Assembly: GCA_017482345.1 (NCBI GenBank)
Contig: JAFUNB010000032.1
Span: forward strand, 1 to 53,942
Reading direction: 5' to 3'
From: Oscillibacter sp.
GTDB lineage: Bacteria > Bacillota > Clostridia > Oscillospirales > Oscillospiraceae
DNA length: 53,942 bases
The translations under genes were made by a program, and so were the position numbers. Within the stretch, counting starts at the first letter, position 1. Each line of letters opens with the position of its first letter. The notes below the pieces were generated by a model, which searched no databases, was not told the origin of the DNA, and saw only the letters and a list, made by a program, of their open reading frames with translations. Below, piece by piece: positions 28,364 through 48,670 of the stretch.

Positions 28364-29305
28364 ATGTCCTTTTCCTTTGATACGAAAAATGAACTCTGCC
28401 GCCTGCCGGCGCAGCGCCTGTGCTGCGCCCGGGCGGAGGCCTATGGTATTCTTCTGTACTGCAACACCTTCCATTCCGCGGAGGTGCGCATCGTCACGGA
28501 GAATCCCAACTTTGCCGCACGGCTGCCCCGCCTGTTCCACCGTGCCTTCGGCCTGCGGTTCGACCGCCAGCCGGAGGAGGGGGCCGAGGGCAAGCTGGTG
28601 TTCCAGATCACGGAGAAGAAAAAGCTGGACCACATCACCAACACCCTGGGCTACGACCCCAGGCAGAATCTGGTGCTGCACATCAACTTCGGCATGCTGG
28701 AGGAGGAGTGCTGCCGCTCGTCCTTCCTGCGGGGCGTGTTCTTCGCCGGCGGCAGCATCACCGACCCCTTAAAGCGCTATCATCTGGAGCTGACCACCTC
28801 CCACGCGCAGGTGAGCCGGGAGCTGGAGGTCCTGCTGCGGGAGAGCGGTTATCCCCCGAAAAATATCACCCGCAACGGCAGTTCCATTACATATTTTAAG
28901 CAAAGCGACCAGATCGAGGATTTTTTGACCATGATCGGCGCGCCGGTGGCCGCCATGAACGTCATGAGCGCCAAGATGGAAAAGGACCTGCGCAACAGCG
29001 TCAACCGCCGTCTCAACTGCGACAGCGCCAATCTGGACAAGGCGGTGGATGCGGCCATGGAGCAGCTGGAGGCCATCCGGAAGCTGGATGCCGCCGGCGT
29101 GCTGGAAAAGCAGCCGGAAAAGCTGCGGCAGACCGCCGCGCTGCGGCTGCGCAACCCGGAGTTGACCCTCAGCGAGCTGGCGGAGGAGTTTGACCCGCCG
29201 CTGACCAAATCCTGCCTGAACCACCGTCTGCGCAAGATCGTGGTGCTGGCGAAGAACCTGCCCGCCCAGAGCGAACAGCTCAAGGAGGAGACTTCTGATG
29301 ACTGA
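28364..29305 (+). CDS. whiA: DNA-binding protein WhiA
   Basis: A 313-residue protein with an N-terminal LAGLIDADG-endonuclease-like fold lacking the nuclease function and a C-terminal helix-turn-helix (L-T-L-S-E-L-A-E-E-F, then L-T-K-S-C-L-N-H-R-L-R-K). L-R-G-V-F-F-A-G-G-S-I-T-D-P marks the fold. WhiA controls sporulation genes in Streptomyces; in Bacillus it affects cell division and chromosome segregation. AAAGGAA lies before the ATG. The last five codons hold the ribosome site and start of the next gene. Confidence 0.96.
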   Translation: MSFSFDTKNELCRLPAQRLCCARAEAYGILLYCNTFHSAEVRIVTENPNFAARLPRLFHRAFGLRFDRQPEEGAEGKLVFQITEKKKLDHITNTLGYDPRQNLVLHINFGMLEEECCRSSFLRGVFFAGGSITDPLKRYHLELTTSHAQVSRELEVLLRESGYPPKNITRNGSSITYFKQSDQIEDFLTMIGAPVAAMNVMSAKMEKDLRNSVNRRLNCDSANLDKAVDAAMEQLEAIRKLDAAGVLEKQPEKLRQTAALRLRNPELTLSELAEEFDPPLTKSCLNHRLRKIVVLAKNLPAQSEQLKEETSDD

Positions 29306-29753
29306 GCGGATGAAAAAGGCGGACGCCTTTCAGAAACTGAATTTCAACTGCGCCCAGAGCGTGCTGGCCGCCTTCGGCGACCTGACGGGTCTGGACGACG
29401 AGACGGCAAAACGAATCGCTGGCGGCCTTGGCGGCGGCATCGGCGGCAGCCGAAACGAGGTCTGCGGCGCACTCAGCGGTGCCATTTTGGTGCTGAGTCT
29501 GCTGACGCCTCATGTTACCCCCAGCTGCCAGGAGGAGAAGGACCGGGTCTACGCCGTGTCCCGTGAATTCCGCAGCCGCTTTGAAGCGCGCTTCGGCTGC
29601 ACCGGCTGCGGTGCCCTGTTGAATCGCGAACACGCTCAGGCCGACTGGGACTGGGCCGCGGAGCTGAACAGCCGCCGCATCTGCATCGTGTTCGTGGTGG
29701 AGGCGGTGCGCATGCTGGAGGACTATTTGAGAGAACTGGGCGTTGACGCCTGA
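29298..29753 (+). CDS. C_GCAxxG_C_C family putative redox protein, copy 1
   Basis: A 151-residue protein of the C_GCAxxG_C_C family, small proteins thought to be redox-active and often near electron-transfer genes. Cys18 lies in F-N-C-A-Q-S-V, then a glycine-rich G-G-L-G-G-G-I-G-G stretch, then the core V-C-G-A-L-S-G with Cys56. Later Cys101/Cys104 (F-G-C-T-G-C-G) and Cys129 (R-I-C-I-V) follow; Cys77 is extra to this copy. The start overlaps whiA by eight bases with AAGGAGGAG upstream. First of three tandem paralogues. The actual partner or metal is unknown. Confidence 0.88.
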   Translation: MTERMKKADAFQKLNFNCAQSVLAAFGDLTGLDDETAKRIAGGLGGGIGGSRNEVCGALSGAILVLSLLTPHVTPSCQEEKDRVYAVSREFRSRFEARFGCTGCGALLNREHAQADWDWAAELNSRRICIVFVVEAVRMLEDYLRELGVDA

Positions 29754-29781
29754 TACGAACGAAATTGAGGAGGAACCTGAG

Positions 29782-30231
29782 ATGACGAAGCGTATGGAAC
29801 TGGCCAATGCCTACCATGATAAGAAATTCAACTGCGCCCAAAGCGTGCTGCTGGCCTTCGGCGACAAGACCGGCCTTTCCGAGGAAACGGCCCGGGCCAT
29901 CGCCGGCGGCATGGGCGGCGGCGTGGGCGGCTGCAAGGAGGAGATCTGCGGCGCCCTCAGCGGCGCTGTGTTGGCGCTGGGCATGCTGCTGCCCCATGTG
30001 GAGGAGAACGATCAGGCGGCCAAGGACCGCGTCTACGCCGCCACCAGCGAGTTCCGCCGCCGCTTTACGGAACGGTTCGGCTGGTGCCGCTGCGGCGACC
30101 TGCTGAACAACGAGGCCGGCGAGGCTGACCGCAAGTGGGCTGCCGAGCTGGGCGCCGAGCGCGTCTGCCCCGTGTTCATCATGGAGACGGTGCGCATGCT
30201 GGAGGACTATCTGCAGGAGCTGGGTCTGTAA
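29782..30231 (+). CDS. C_GCAxxG_C_C family putative redox protein, copy 2
   Basis: A 149-residue paralogue of the neighbouring genes, with F-N-C-A-Q-S-V, G-G-M-G-G-G-V-G-G-C, I-C-G-A-L-S-G, W-C-R-C-G and R-V-C-P-V-F in the same order. It carries one extra cysteine just before the core motif (G-G-C-K-E-E). The C-terminal V-R-M-L-E-D-Y-L is the same as in copy 1, so these two are the closest pair. Start: ATG 29782 seven bases after GAGGAGGA; an in-frame ATG at 29743 would overlap copy 1 and leave that site unused. Confidence 0.87.
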   Translation: MTKRMELANAYHDKKFNCAQSVLLAFGDKTGLSEETARAIAGGMGGGVGGCKEEICGALSGAVLALGMLLPHVEENDQAAKDRVYAATSEFRRRFTERFGWCRCGDLLNNEAGEADRKWAAELGAERVCPVFIMETVRMLEDYLQELGL

Positions 30232-30270
30232 GACCCCCGATCATACAAAAAGAAAAGGAGATGCTTGATT

Positions 30271-30729
30271 ATGGATCGTTGTGAACAGGCACTTGCCTAT
30301 CATCAGGGAGGCTATAACTGCGCCCAGAGCGTGACGCTGGCCTTCGCCGAGGACACCGGGGTGTCCCGGGAGACTCTGCTTGCCATCGTGGGCGGCATGG
30401 GCGGCGGCGTGGGCGGCACCCGCGAGGAGCTGTGCGGCGCCATCAGCGGCGGCACCATGGTGCTGGGCATGATGGCCCCCTTTGCTGATCCCGAAAGAAC
30501 CGAGGACCGCCGCCGTCTGTACGGCTACGTCAAGGAATTCAGAAAGCGCTTTACCGGGCGCTTCAACGGTCTGAGCCAGTGCGGCTCTCTGCTGCGCTCC
30601 CGGGTGGAGGCCACGGAGGAACTGACGCCCGCCGCCTTCCGGCTGGGCGCGAAAAAGCACTGCGACATCATGGTGGTCACCGCCGTGGAGATCGTGGAAC
30701 AGATGCTGAAGGAGGAGGGCCTGCTGTAA
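30271..30729 (+). CDS. C_GCAxxG_C_C family putative redox protein, copy 3
   Basis: A 152-residue paralogue with Y-N-C-A-Q-S-V, the G-G-M-G-G-G-V-G-G-T stretch, L-C-G-A-I-S-G, S-Q-C-G-S-L and K-H-C-D-I-M. It has lost one cysteine of the pair that copies 1 and 2 carry (Q-C-G in place of C-x-x-C-G or C-x-C-G), and diverges more at the C-terminus. Start: ATG 30271, ten bases after AAAAGGAG. It lies 39 bases after copy 2. All three retain the C_GCAxxG-like core, suggesting that they are expressed and used. Confidence 0.86.
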   Translation: MDRCEQALAYHQGGYNCAQSVTLAFAEDTGVSRETLLAIVGGMGGGVGGTREELCGAISGGTMVLGMMAPFADPERTEDRRRLYGYVKEFRKRFTGRFNGLSQCGSLLRSRVEATEELTPAAFRLGAKKHCDIMVVTAVEIVEQMLKEEGLL

Positions 30730-44192: not shown

Positions 44193-44278
44193 GAGACGGA
44201 GCAGACGGCGCGGCGCATGGACGTGCCGCTGGAATTCGTGAACAGCTGTCTGTAAGTTCCTGTTTCAGGAGAATGACT

Positions 44279-45487
44279 ATGGAAAAACACATTTTCGGCG
44301 TGACCGAAGTGAACAATCTGGTGAAGCTCCTGCTGGACAATGAGCCGATGCTGAACAACATCTGTGTCCGGGGCGAGCTTTCCAACTATAAAATCTATCC
44401 CTCCGGTCACCACTACTTCTCTCTGAAGGACCCCGAGGGCGCCATCCGCTGCGTCATGTTCAAGGGCAGCGCCATGAAGCTCAGGTTCCGGCCGGAAAAC
44501 GGCATGAAGGTGGTGGTGACGGGCCGGGTCAGCGTCTTCCCCCGGGACGGCGCCTACCAGCTGTACTGCAACACCATGATCCCCGAGGGCGTGGGCGATC
44601 TGGCGGTGGCCTTTGAGCAGCTGAAAGCCAAGCTGTATGCCGAGGGCCTCTTCGACCCCGGCCACAAAAAGCCCCTGCCGGCCTATCCGGAAAGAATCGC
44701 CGTCATCACGTCCTCCGCCGGCGCGGCGGTGCACGACATGATCCGTATCCTGCGGCGGCGGTATCCGCTGGCAAAGGTGATTCTGCTGCCCGTGCGGGTA
44801 CAGGGCGTGGAGGCCCCACCGGAGATCGTGGGGGCCATCCGGTACGCCAACCGGTGGAACATCGCCGACGTCATCATCACCGGACGGGGCGGCGGCTCCA
44901 TGGAGGACCTGTGGGCCTTCAACGACGAGCGGGTGGCCCGGGCGATTTACGCATCCGACATCCCTGTCATCTCCGCCGTGGGCCATGAGCCGGACGTGAC
45001 CATCTCCGACTATGTGGCGGACGCGCGTGCCTCCACTCCCTCCAACGCGGCGGAGATCGCCGTGCCGGACAGGGAGGAGCTGGCGCGGTGGCTGCGTGGC
45101 GCGGAGGAGCGCATGGCCCAAAGCCAGACGGCCCGGCTGGACGCCTTACGTAAAAGGCTGGAGACGCTGGCCTCCAAGCGCTGCATGACGGACCAGATGG
45201 CCTATGTGCAGGACAAGCGCATGGAGCTGGTGCACGTGCAGCAGCGGCTGGGCGATTTGGCCGAGATGCAGCTGCACAAAAAGCGGCAGAAATTTTCCAC
45301 ACTGGCGGCCTCGCTGGACGCCATGAGTCCCTTGAAAGTCCTGGGCCGGGGCTACGCCATGGCACAGAACGAGGGGGGACAGGTTTTGAAAAGCTATCGG
45401 GATGTGGCGGCGGGAGAATCCGTCACCGTCACACTGGGAGAGGGCGGCTTCACCTGCACGGTGGACGCGCCCTGCAAGGAGGTTTGA
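44279..45487 (+). CDS. xseA: Exodeoxyribonuclease VII large subunit
   Basis: A 402-residue subunit of the single-strand exonuclease. An N-terminal OB domain (V-R-G-E-L-S-N-Y-K, H-H-Y-F-S-L-K-D) is followed by the catalytic region with R-I-A-V-I-T-S-S-A-G-A-A-V-H-D and I-T-G-R-G-G-G-S-M-E-D-L-W-A-F-N-D. The C-terminal P-L-K-V-L-G-R-G-Y-A segment closes it. Start: ATG 44279, six bases after AGGAGA; the ATG at 44273 touches that site. xseB begins four bases after the stop. Confidence 0.96.
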   Translation: MEKHIFGVTEVNNLVKLLLDNEPMLNNICVRGELSNYKIYPSGHHYFSLKDPEGAIRCVMFKGSAMKLRFRPENGMKVVVTGRVSVFPRDGAYQLYCNTMIPEGVGDLAVAFEQLKAKLYAEGLFDPGHKKPLPAYPERIAVITSSAGAAVHDMIRILRRRYPLAKVILLPVRVQGVEAPPEIVGAIRYANRWNIADVIITGRGGGSMEDLWAFNDERVARAIYASDIPVISAVGHEPDVTISDYVADARASTPSNAAEIAVPDREELARWLRGAEERMAQSQTARLDALRKRLETLASKRCMTDQMAYVQDKRMELVHVQQRLGDLAEMQLHKKRQKFSTLAASLDAMSPLKVLGRGYAMAQNEGGQVLKSYRDVAAGESVTVTLGEGGFTCTVDAPCKEV

Positions 45488-45490
45488 CAC

Positions 45491-45727
45491 ATGGCAGCAA
45501 AGAAACTGACATTTGAACAGCAGCTGGCCCGTCTTGAGGAGATCGTGGCGGCGCTGGAGAAGGGCGACGCCATGCTGGCGGACTCCCTGGCCCTGTTTGA
45601 GGAGGGCACGAAGCTCATCGCCGCCTGCTCCAAGCAGCTGGATCAGGCGGAGCAGCAGGTGGTGAAGCTGATGAAGGGCGCCGACGGCGCGCCGGTGGAG
45701 CTGCCCTTTGCGGAGAAGGAGGACTGA
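45491..45727 (+). CDS. xseB: Exodeoxyribonuclease VII small subunit
   Basis: A 78-residue helical-hairpin protein that binds the long C-terminal coil of XseA. F-E-Q-Q-L-A-R-L-E-E-I-V-A-A-L-E-K-G and S-L-A-L-F-E-E-G are the family's signature. AAGGAGG lies before the ATG, inside the end of xseA. The ispA start follows two bases after the stop. Confidence 0.96.
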   Translation: MAAKKLTFEQQLARLEEIVAALEKGDAMLADSLALFEEGTKLIAACSKQLDQAEQQVVKLMKGADGAPVELPFAEKED

Positions 45728-45729
45728 CC

Positions 45730-46581
45730 GTGGACAAGACGATGTTTGACCAGCGCTATGCCCTGTATCTCAGTGAGATCGAGCATTTTTTGAGCGCCCA
45801 GTTTGAGGAGAAGCCCCACTGGGCCGACCTGTACGACTCCATGCGCTACTCTCTGCTGGCAGGCGGCAAGCGCATCCGCCCGGTGCTGACGCTGGAATTT
45901 GCCCGCATGGCCGGCATGGACTGGCGTCAGGTCCTGCCTGTGGCCTGCGCACTGGAGTTTGTCCACACCTATTCCCTCATCCACGACGACCTGCGCCGGG
46001 GCAAGCCCACCAACCCCAAGGTCTACGGCGAGACCATGGCCATTCTGGCCGGCGACGCGCTGCAGCCGGAGGCCTACCGCCTCATCCTGACGGCTCCCGG
46101 TCTGGATGCCCGTGAGCGGGCGGACTGCGCCCTGATCCTGGCCGGTGCCTCCGGCGCGGACGGAATGGTGGCCGGCCAGGTGCTGGATACCCTCCACCAG
46201 CCGAAAACGGAGGAGGAGCTGACGGAGGTGCACCGTCTCAAGACCGGCGCCATGATCGCCGGCGCCTGCATGCTGGGCGTGGCCGCCGCCGGCGGCAGCG
46301 ACAAGCTGCGTGCCGCCGCGGAGGAGTACGGTTATCAGCTTGGCATGGCCTTCCAGATCCGGGACGACATGCTGGATGTGGTGGGCGACGAGGCCACGTT
46401 TGGCAAGCCCATCGGCTCCGACGCGGAGGAGGGCAAGGTGACCTTCGTGGATCTGCTGGGGCTGGAGGGCTGTGAGACGGCGGTGCGGGACTGCACCCGT
46501 CAGGCCTGCGAGGCCGTGGCGGAGCACGACGGGGAATTCCTGTGCTTCCTGGCGGAGCAGCTGGCTGGAAGAAACAAGTAA
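45730..46581 (+). CDS. ispA: Polyprenyl (farnesyl) diphosphate synthase with a damaged first Asp-rich motif
   Basis: A 283-residue prenyl synthase of the FPP/GGPP type. G-G-K-R-I-R-P is at residues 45-51 and the second Asp-rich motif F-Q-I-R-D-D-M-L-D is intact. The first motif is not: relatives read I-H-D-D-L-P-A-M-D-x-D-D-L-R-R-G, but here residues 84-91 read I-H-D-D-L-R-R-G, so about eight residues with the third aspartate of DDxxxxD are missing, in frame. The first motif binds the magnesium of the allylic substrate, so activity may be lost or altered. Start: GTG 45730, seven bases after AAGGAGG. Sits in the usual place between xseB and dxs. Confidence 0.9.
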   Translation: MDKTMFDQRYALYLSEIEHFLSAQFEEKPHWADLYDSMRYSLLAGGKRIRPVLTLEFARMAGMDWRQVLPVACALEFVHTYSLIHDDLRRGKPTNPKVYGETMAILAGDALQPEAYRLILTAPGLDARERADCALILAGASGADGMVAGQVLDTLHQPKTEEELTEVHRLKTGAMIAGACMLGVAAAGGSDKLRAAAEEYGYQLGMAFQIRDDMLDVVGDEATFGKPIGSDAEEGKVTFVDLLGLEGCETAVRDCTRQACEAVAEHDGEFLCFLAEQLAGRNK

Positions 46582-46810: not shown

Positions 46811-48670
46811 GTGATATTGGAAACCATCCATTCCCCGGCGGACGTGAAGGCGCTGGAGGCGGAAAAGCTGCCTCAGCTGTGCCAGGAGCTGCGGGAATTT
46901 CTGGTGGCGAACGTGTCCCAGACCGGCGGCCATCTGGCGGCCAATTTGGGCGCTGTTGAGCTGACGGTGGCCATCCACCGGGTGTTTGACACCACCCGGG
47001 ACCGGCTGGTGTTCGACGTGGGCCACCAATCCTATGTGCATAAGGCGCTGACCGGCCGTCAGGCCCAGTTTCCCACCCTCCGCCAGTTCGGGGGGCTTTC
47101 CGGCTTTCCCAAGCCCCGGGAGAGCGTCCACGACGCCTTCATCGCCGGACATGCCTCCAACTCCGTGTCCGTGGCGCTGGGCATGGCCCACGCCAGAACC
47201 CTGCAGAAGGACGACTACAGCGTCCTCGCCCTCATCGGCGACGGCGCCCTCACCGGCGGCCTGGCCTACGAGGGACTGAACAACGCCGGCGCCTCCGGCG
47301 AGCCCCTCATCGTCATCCTCAACGACAACGGCATGTCCATCAACCCCAACGTGGGCGCCATGACCGCTCATCTGAGCGGTCTGCGCAGTAAGCCGGTGTA
47401 CTACCACTTCAAGAAGTGGTACCGGGGTCTCTTTGGCGAGGAGCCGGAGAAAAACGCCGTCTACCGCTTCAACCACAAGCTGAAAACCAGCCTGAAAAAG
47501 AACCTCTGGCCCAGCAGTACCCTCTTTGAGGACATGGGCTTCACCTATCTCGGCCCCATCGACGGCCACGATATCCCCCGCCTGTGTGACGTGCTGCGGT
47601 GGGCCAGGGAGCTGAACGGCCCCGTGCTGCTCCACGTCCACACCCAGAAGGGCAGGGGCTACCGCTTTGCTGAGGAGAATCCCGGCAAGTTCCACGGCAT
47701 CGCCCCCTTCGACCCCGCCACCGGAGAGCTGAAAAAGCCGGGCGGCAAGACGTTCTCCGCCGTCTTCGGCGAGACGCTCTGTGAATGTGCGAAAGAAGAC
47801 CAGCGGGTCTGCGCCATCACCGCCGCCATGGCGGACGGCACAGGTCTCTCGCCCTTTGCAAAGGCGTTCCCGGAGCGGTTCTTCGACGTGGGCATCGCCG
47901 AGGGCCACGGCGTCACCATGGCCGCCGGCCTTGCAGCGCAGGGTATGGTGCCGGCCTTCGCCGTGTATTCCACCTTCCTCCAGCGTGGCTACGACATGCT
48001 GATGCACGATGTGTCCCTCCAGAACCTCCATGTGGTGCTGGGTGTGGACCGTGCGGGCCTTGTGGGCTCCGACGGTGAGACCCACCACGGCTGCTTCGAC
48101 GCGCTGTTCCTCTCTGCCATCCCCGGCTTCACGGTGCTGTGCCCCGCCAACTTCGCCGAGCTGCGCACCATGACCCGTCAGGCGTTGTTCGATTACAACG
48201 GCCCCGTGGCCATCCGCTACCCCAGAGGCGGCGAGGGCGCCTTCCGGGAGGATACGGCAGGGGAGACGGCGGTTTGCCTGCGGCAGGGCACGGATGTGAC
48301 TCTGCTGGCCCACGGCATCCTCATCAATAATGTTTTGCGTGCGGCAGATTTGCTGGCGGAGCGTGGCATCAGCGCTCAGGTCATCAAGCTCAACCGCATT
48401 TCCCCCCTTGGCAGCGGCGAAATCGCTGGACTGCTGGGGAGTATCGATACCCTGCTGGTGGCGGAGGATTCCTTTGGCGCCGGCTGCGCGGGCCAGCGGC
48501 TGGCAGCCATGCTGGCACAGGAGGGCAAGGCCCCCAAACATCTGATTCTGAAAAATCTTGGAAAGACCTACGCCCCCGAGGGCAGCGTCGCGGAGCTGGA
48601 GCACAGCTTCGGCCTGGACGCGGAGAGCCTTGCGGCGGCAGCAGAGGAGGCGGTTCGAAATGGCCAATAA
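46811..48670 (+). CDS. dxs: 1-deoxy-D-xylulose-5-phosphate synthase
   Basis: A 619-residue thiamine-diphosphate enzyme that condenses pyruvate and glyceraldehyde-3-phosphate, the entry of the MEP pathway. His41 (T-G-G-H-L-A-A-N-L-G) and D-V-G-H-Q-S-Y-V-H-K near residue 70 are active-site segments. The TPP motif is G-D-G-A-L-T-G-G at 143-150, then N-D-N-G-M-S-I. The transketolase pyrimidine domain follows, with V-G-I-A-E-G-H and G-V-D-R-A-G-L-V-G. Start: GTG 46811, some ten bases after GAGGAG. It has its own promoter after the ispA terminator. Confidence 0.95.
   Translation: MILETIHSPADVKALEAEKLPQLCQELREFLVANVSQTGGHLAANLGAVELTVAIHRVFDTTRDRLVFDVGHQSYVHKALTGRQAQFPTLRQFGGLSGFPKPRESVHDAFIAGHASNSVSVALGMAHARTLQKDDYSVLALIGDGALTGGLAYEGLNNAGASGEPLIVILNDNGMSINPNVGAMTAHLSGLRSKPVYYHFKKWYRGLFGEEPEKNAVYRFNHKLKTSLKKNLWPSSTLFEDMGFTYLGPIDGHDIPRLCDVLRWARELNGPVLLHVHTQKGRGYRFAEENPGKFHGIAPFDPATGELKKPGGKTFSAVFGETLCECAKEDQRVCAITAAMADGTGLSPFAKAFPERFFDVGIAEGHGVTMAAGLAAQGMVPAFAVYSTFLQRGYDMLMHDVSLQNLHVVLGVDRAGLVGSDGETHHGCFDALFLSAIPGFTVLCPANFAELRTMTRQALFDYNGPVAIRYPRGGEGAFREDTAGETAVCLRQGTDVTLLAHGILINNVLRAADLLAERGISAQVIKLNRISPLGSGEIAGLLGSIDTLLVAEDSFGAGCAGQRLAAMLAQEGKAPKHLILKNLGKTYAPEGSVAELEHSFGLDAESLAAAAEEAVRNGQ

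Follow-up and report, generated by a model that had tools for sequence, protein, structure and literature searches.

The closest described counterparts of the protein reported here are the FPP synthases of the IspA type (NF045485, PF00348), and for the enzyme of Escherichia coli the excerpted text of PMC6214179 states that in the first aspartate-rich motif the first and last aspartates serve as ligands of Mg A and Mg C, two of the three magnesium ions. Departures from this motif have also been described. The non-catalytic small subunits of heteromeric prenyl synthases (GPPS-SSU) are likewise devoid of DDxxD, share about 15% identity with other enzymes and act together with a large subunit, as given in the excerpt of PMC7839719. 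Rv0989c of Mycobacterium tuberculosis is altered in both the first and the second motif, the first naturally departing from DDxxD, and is active despite these changes, producing GPP, again going by the excerpted portion of PMC6214179. Among the titles and abstract openings searched, no natural loss of the first aspartate-rich motif was described, which is a statement about that material and not a claim of absence from print.

The window analysed here, meaning the whole stretch of 53,942 nucleotides, is contig 32 of an Oscillibacter sp. draft genome (1.63 Mb in 42 contigs, 72% complete) and carries at 45730..46581 on the forward strand an ispA-like trans-prenyl synthase gene (PF00348; GTG start, 283 aa), whose best solved relative by sequence is 3uca. 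Its product shares with IspA-type FPP synthases the fold, the GGKRIRP block, RRG, KTG and the second aspartate-rich motif, and the gene lies in the same xseA-xseB-ispA-dxs neighbourhood. It differs from them by the absence of eight residues from the first motif and its loop, by the substitution H96P and by a profile score below the family cut-off. In contrast to GPPS-SSU, with their about 15% identity to other enzymes and their large-subunit partner, the window IspA differs at one spot and the draft shows no second PF00348 gene, whereas Rv0989c carries point substitutions instead of an eight-residue loss (excerpt of PMC6214179).

The ispA locus and its missing stretch

Within the named genome collection, the nearest relatives of the window are MAGs labelled Oscillospiraceae, Dysosmobacter and Oscillibacter. 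On the forward strand, ispA is preceded by xseA (44273..45487, Pfam PF02601) and xseB (45491..45727, Pfam PF02609) and followed by dxs (46811..48670, Pfam PF13292), an order common to the window and its relative G060 (genome and contig handles are ours). As a separate observation on dxs, its match splits near residue 490 in four relatives (G018, G022, G023 and G063), with the C-terminal part at 42-47% identity to the window and a stop counted in two of the four.

The site of the loss lies at 45979..46002 on the forward strand, where the DNA reads ATC CAC GAC GAC CTG CGC CGG GGC, in frame within the 283-aa ORF, and encodes I-H-D-D-L-R-R-G in place of the I-H-D-D-L-P-C-M-D-x-D-D-L-R-R-G of most relatives. 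The window protein reads SLIHDDLRRGKPTNP, leaving one residue between DD and RRG, and its stretch over the loss reads SLIHDDLRRGKPTNPKVYGE. Relatives spanning the site amounted to 151 rows, or 147 distinct sequences after merging of duplicates and exclusion of ten fragments without the whole motif; the full motif is present in every one of the 147, with a DD-to-RRG spacing of nine residues, mostly LPCMD-[D/N]-D-D-L. Compared with these, eight residues (24 nt) are gone from the window IspA, including the last Asp of DDxxxxD, and where helix D should carry the motif, DD is directly followed by L-R-R-G. An in-frame loss of about eight residues including this Asp had been claimed in the sequence-only reading, and the comparison with the relatives bears it out; its wording of the normal motif needs a small correction, most relatives of the group having DDLPCMD instead of DDLPAMD.

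Outside the gap, the conserved blocks of IspA are intact. The GGKR..RP block (G46, K47, R48, R50), RRG (R89, R90, G91) and KTG (K171, T172) are made up of invariant residues, and the second aspartate-rich motif RDDMLD (46360..46377, forward strand) is retained within FQIRDDMLD, with D212, D213, L215 and D216 at invariant columns of the alignment, in agreement with the earlier description of the second motif and the flanking segments as spared. Besides the gap, the gene has one other radical change unique to the window, which the sequence-only reading does not mention. Codon CCC (46015..46017, forward strand) places Pro at residue 96, a position held by His in 146 of the 147 distinct relatives (CAC or CAT in their printed rows) and by W in one. 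H96P is seven codons beyond the repeat left at the junction, and this proximity may reflect a low-quality patch, chance or compensation.

By profile, the window IspA is a clear member of PF00348 (175.4 bits; gathering cut-off 27) and at 261.1 bits fails to reach the curated cut-off of 275 of the NCBIfam FPP synthase model NF045485, on which five distinct intact relatives (six entries, L005 and L032 being the same contig) score above the cut-off, at 304.8-315.5 bits.

The string ACGACGACCTGC at 45983..45994 on the forward strand matches a single copy of a 12-nt direct repeat, two copies of which stand 24 nt apart in 2 of 39 relatives from the genus whose motif is intact (L022 and L026); the repeat was not seen in the nearest relative G060 (L003). 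Identical runs of at least 8 nt, spaced by exactly 24 nt, occur at the motif in 10 of these 39 relatives and elsewhere in ispA in 1 of the 39. Loss of one repeat copy together with the spacer leads to the observed junction, so the explanation by short direct repeats offered earlier fits the relatives as well, with the window string as the putative surviving copy. The deletion junction would lie within 45983-45994.

Other short forms, predicted fold and selection

For the short form, 400 genomes of the family and 398 of the phylum were scanned, the own genome being in both samples, with the pattern I-H-D-D-x-R-R-G in the family and a narrower one, its middle residue restricted to L or F, in the phylum. 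The former pattern was present in 9 of the 400 family genomes, including two places in the own genome, and the latter in 2 of the 398 phylum genomes, own included; in each sample one of the places is the window's ispA. Seven of the ten non-ispA places lie in genomes whose PF00348 gene sits on another contig. Another, in G273, which is without a PF00348 match, is antisense to a longer frame, and the second place in the own genome is on contig 9 in a frame that runs against another long one, the sole PF00348 gene being on contig 32. The other phylum-sample match runs antisense to a long, MutS-like frame. No short form was present in any other prenyl synthase gene in these family and phylum searches, the patterns of which need exact I-H-D-D codons, so that short forms with other residues could escape them. 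A clade or family of short-loop enzymes was hence set aside as a candidate: the many related short-loop enzymes that the sequence-only reading named as a refutation of its claim were encountered neither among the 147 relatives nor in the two samples.

Apart from the gap, ispA is under purifying selection and free of decay. The ORF contains no frameshift or stop, and dN/dS of the window ispA against five relatives is 0.19-0.27 by NG86 (NG86 and LWL85 were the estimators used). In a set of 41 sequences (the window and 40 genus relatives), the window changes two near-invariant positions outside the gap, H96P and V105I, within a range of 0-4 for the set, and with the gap masked its terminal branch is the 11th longest of the 41. 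Identities are near-clocklike, at 79.4% between the window and G060, 78.0% between the window and G028 and 80.1% between G060 and G028.

AlphaFold, run with 33 sequences and with L032 as the intact comparator, returned a mean pLDDT of 92.3 for the window IspA and 93.5 for L032. In the model of L032, helix D spans residues 60-82, up to the second Asp; in that of the window it stops at L83, four residues earlier in register, I-H-D-D become a linker, and the order of the short L-R strand and RRG is unchanged. The mean pLDDT of residues 81-90 is 71 in the window versus 87 in the intact relative. The model speaks for a fold able to close over the gap, not for an active enzyme, with the helix turn bearing DD predicted to be unwound. 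With the last Asp missing from the first motif and this turn predicted to unwind in bridging the gap, we infer that the IspA encoded by this sequence would be inactive or almost so, irrespective of whether a mis-join or slippage produced it.

The earlier reading called for a search of the rest of the genome for another trans-prenyl synthase; a second PF00348 gene was not found in the 72%-complete draft, ispA being the single copy. Two relatives with near-closed genomes, G085 (1 contig) and G082 (2 contigs), have one PF00348 gene each. IspA may therefore be the sole trans-prenyl synthase in the genus. The draft also contains one PF01255 gene of the UppS family. The earlier expectation that the gene is needed for undecaprenyl phosphate is reasonable, though short of certain, as Staphylococcus aureus tolerates the loss of both ispA and hepT according to the excerpt of PMC12345219; need for the gene is consequently no proof of its function.

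Contig ends at the motif

Among genomes of the genus, 76 gave a match, own included, and six of these carry ispA in two pieces on separate contigs, with an end within residues 69-99 in five of the six and within residues 76-88 in four; in G016 and G017 the two ispA pieces meet inside the first aspartate-rich motif. Binomial values for this clustering (9e-5 and 6e-5) were calculated post hoc and come out too low, since a break, which has two ends, was treated as one end. Two 30-nt bins around the motif start rank among the highest of 28 in 21-mers shared between species of the genus, at 40% and 48%. With dxs of the same genomes as a control, the splits are scattered, with some bunching at residues 305-358 in at least four genomes (G016, G027, G043 and G064). 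The proposal of a break hotspot special to the ispA motif is weakened by this bunching of dxs ends, and conserved stretches in general seem to stop such assemblies.

Contigs L112-L119 (from G016, G017, G003 and G004) end at or near the first motif of ispA, and contig L099, labelled Candidatus Limivicinus, also begins at it.

The window was also compared ORF by ORF, taking 24 ORFs against G060 and part of G028 and dropping overlapping ORFs and matches with stops. Among the 18 of the 24 at 70% identity or more, ispA alone has a window-specific internal gap of at least 3 aa, which argues that the assembly is not generally poor, and general poor quality of the window was discarded as an explanation. 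For dxs in particular, no window-specific gap of at least 3 aa was seen against G060 or G028. Gaps also occur in three ORFs of lower similarity (37845, 39691 and 41388), and the xseA frame has one of 7 aa upstream of the xseA start.

Origin of the loss

We consider it probable that the gap represents a one-off lesion of an otherwise ordinary FPP synthase gene, either a mis-join or a very recent slippage, and not an evolved variety of the enzyme, because it is seen in a single unreplicated draft sequence, the gene otherwise evolves as a working one, and assemblies frequently stop at this place. In such an event, the 24 nt between two short-repeat copies, encoding the two D-D-L stretches of the motif, would have dropped out of one sequence. 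They could have been lost during assembly, when two contig ends were joined across the repeat where drafts of the genus often stop; a wrong join of this kind gives the same junction as the loss of a repeat copy, and its chances fall somewhat short of even. Usual assemblers work with k-mers longer than 12 nt, so that a mis-join over the repeat would need a gap-closing step. A slippage deletion arising very recently in the sequenced population is a tentative second origin, and we judge assembly a little more likely than slippage. A join of two strains or species at the conserved motif, with the gap as a by-product, is very improbable. The frequent sharing of short k-mers between species at the motif would permit such a chimera, and in the far right part the nearest relative is L004 and not L003. 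Left of the site, however, L003 is best, and in the near right part L005, L004 and L003 are the top three with small differences, so that the change of nearest relative is not abrupt at a resolution that is weak; the chimera was rejected for want of a clear shift across the site, though the far right favours L004.

An altered product, one of the options named in the sequence-only reading, found no support. A real, fixed and tolerated deletion, leaving a short-loop enzyme that is active, though perhaps slower or with a product of different chain length, and with H96P compensating at the start of the next helix, is unlikely; narrower still, and a shade less likely, is a functioning FPP synthase with a rebuilt metal site, one residue from DD to RRG, no last Asp and H96P as compensation. 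An active short-loop enzyme would agree with the open frame, the purifying selection on the other conserved blocks, the lack of a second PF00348 gene in the draft, the presence of a UppS-family gene, the product of which would depend on FPP, the high confidence with which the AlphaFold model folds and the position of H96P adjoining the changed region. It has to be set against a gap common to no compared relative, the loss of one of the two aspartates that hold Mg A and Mg C (excerpt of PMC6214179), a model that draws DD out of the helix and the fall of the NF045485 score below the FPP synthase cut-off. Least probable of all is an ispA long dead in a species making FPP by another route. The lost motif would suit such an old pseudogene, and a draft of 72% completeness could miss a second synthase, but the ORF is free of frameshift and stop, unusual substitutions are not in excess, the branch length is ordinary and dN/dS stays low. 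The absence of decay together with the sole PF00348 gene found and the one each in G082 and G085 makes an old dead gene unlikely, and it was rejected on leave-one-out conservation, branch length and dN/dS.

If the favoured lesion is correct, the site is a further example of a small loss between short direct repeats and serves as a warning that losses of catalytic motifs in draft genomes need reads before interpretation. If the enzyme works instead, it would be an exception to the accepted rule for trans-prenyl synthases, by which the metal ions are held by the aspartates at both ends of the first motif.

Elsewhere in the window, the stretch 29298-30729 immediately after whiA contains three genes in tandem, all from the C_GCAxxG_C_C putative redox family (PF09719). 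All three correspond to one single stretch of contig 1 of G060, and the copy number may differ between the two genomes.
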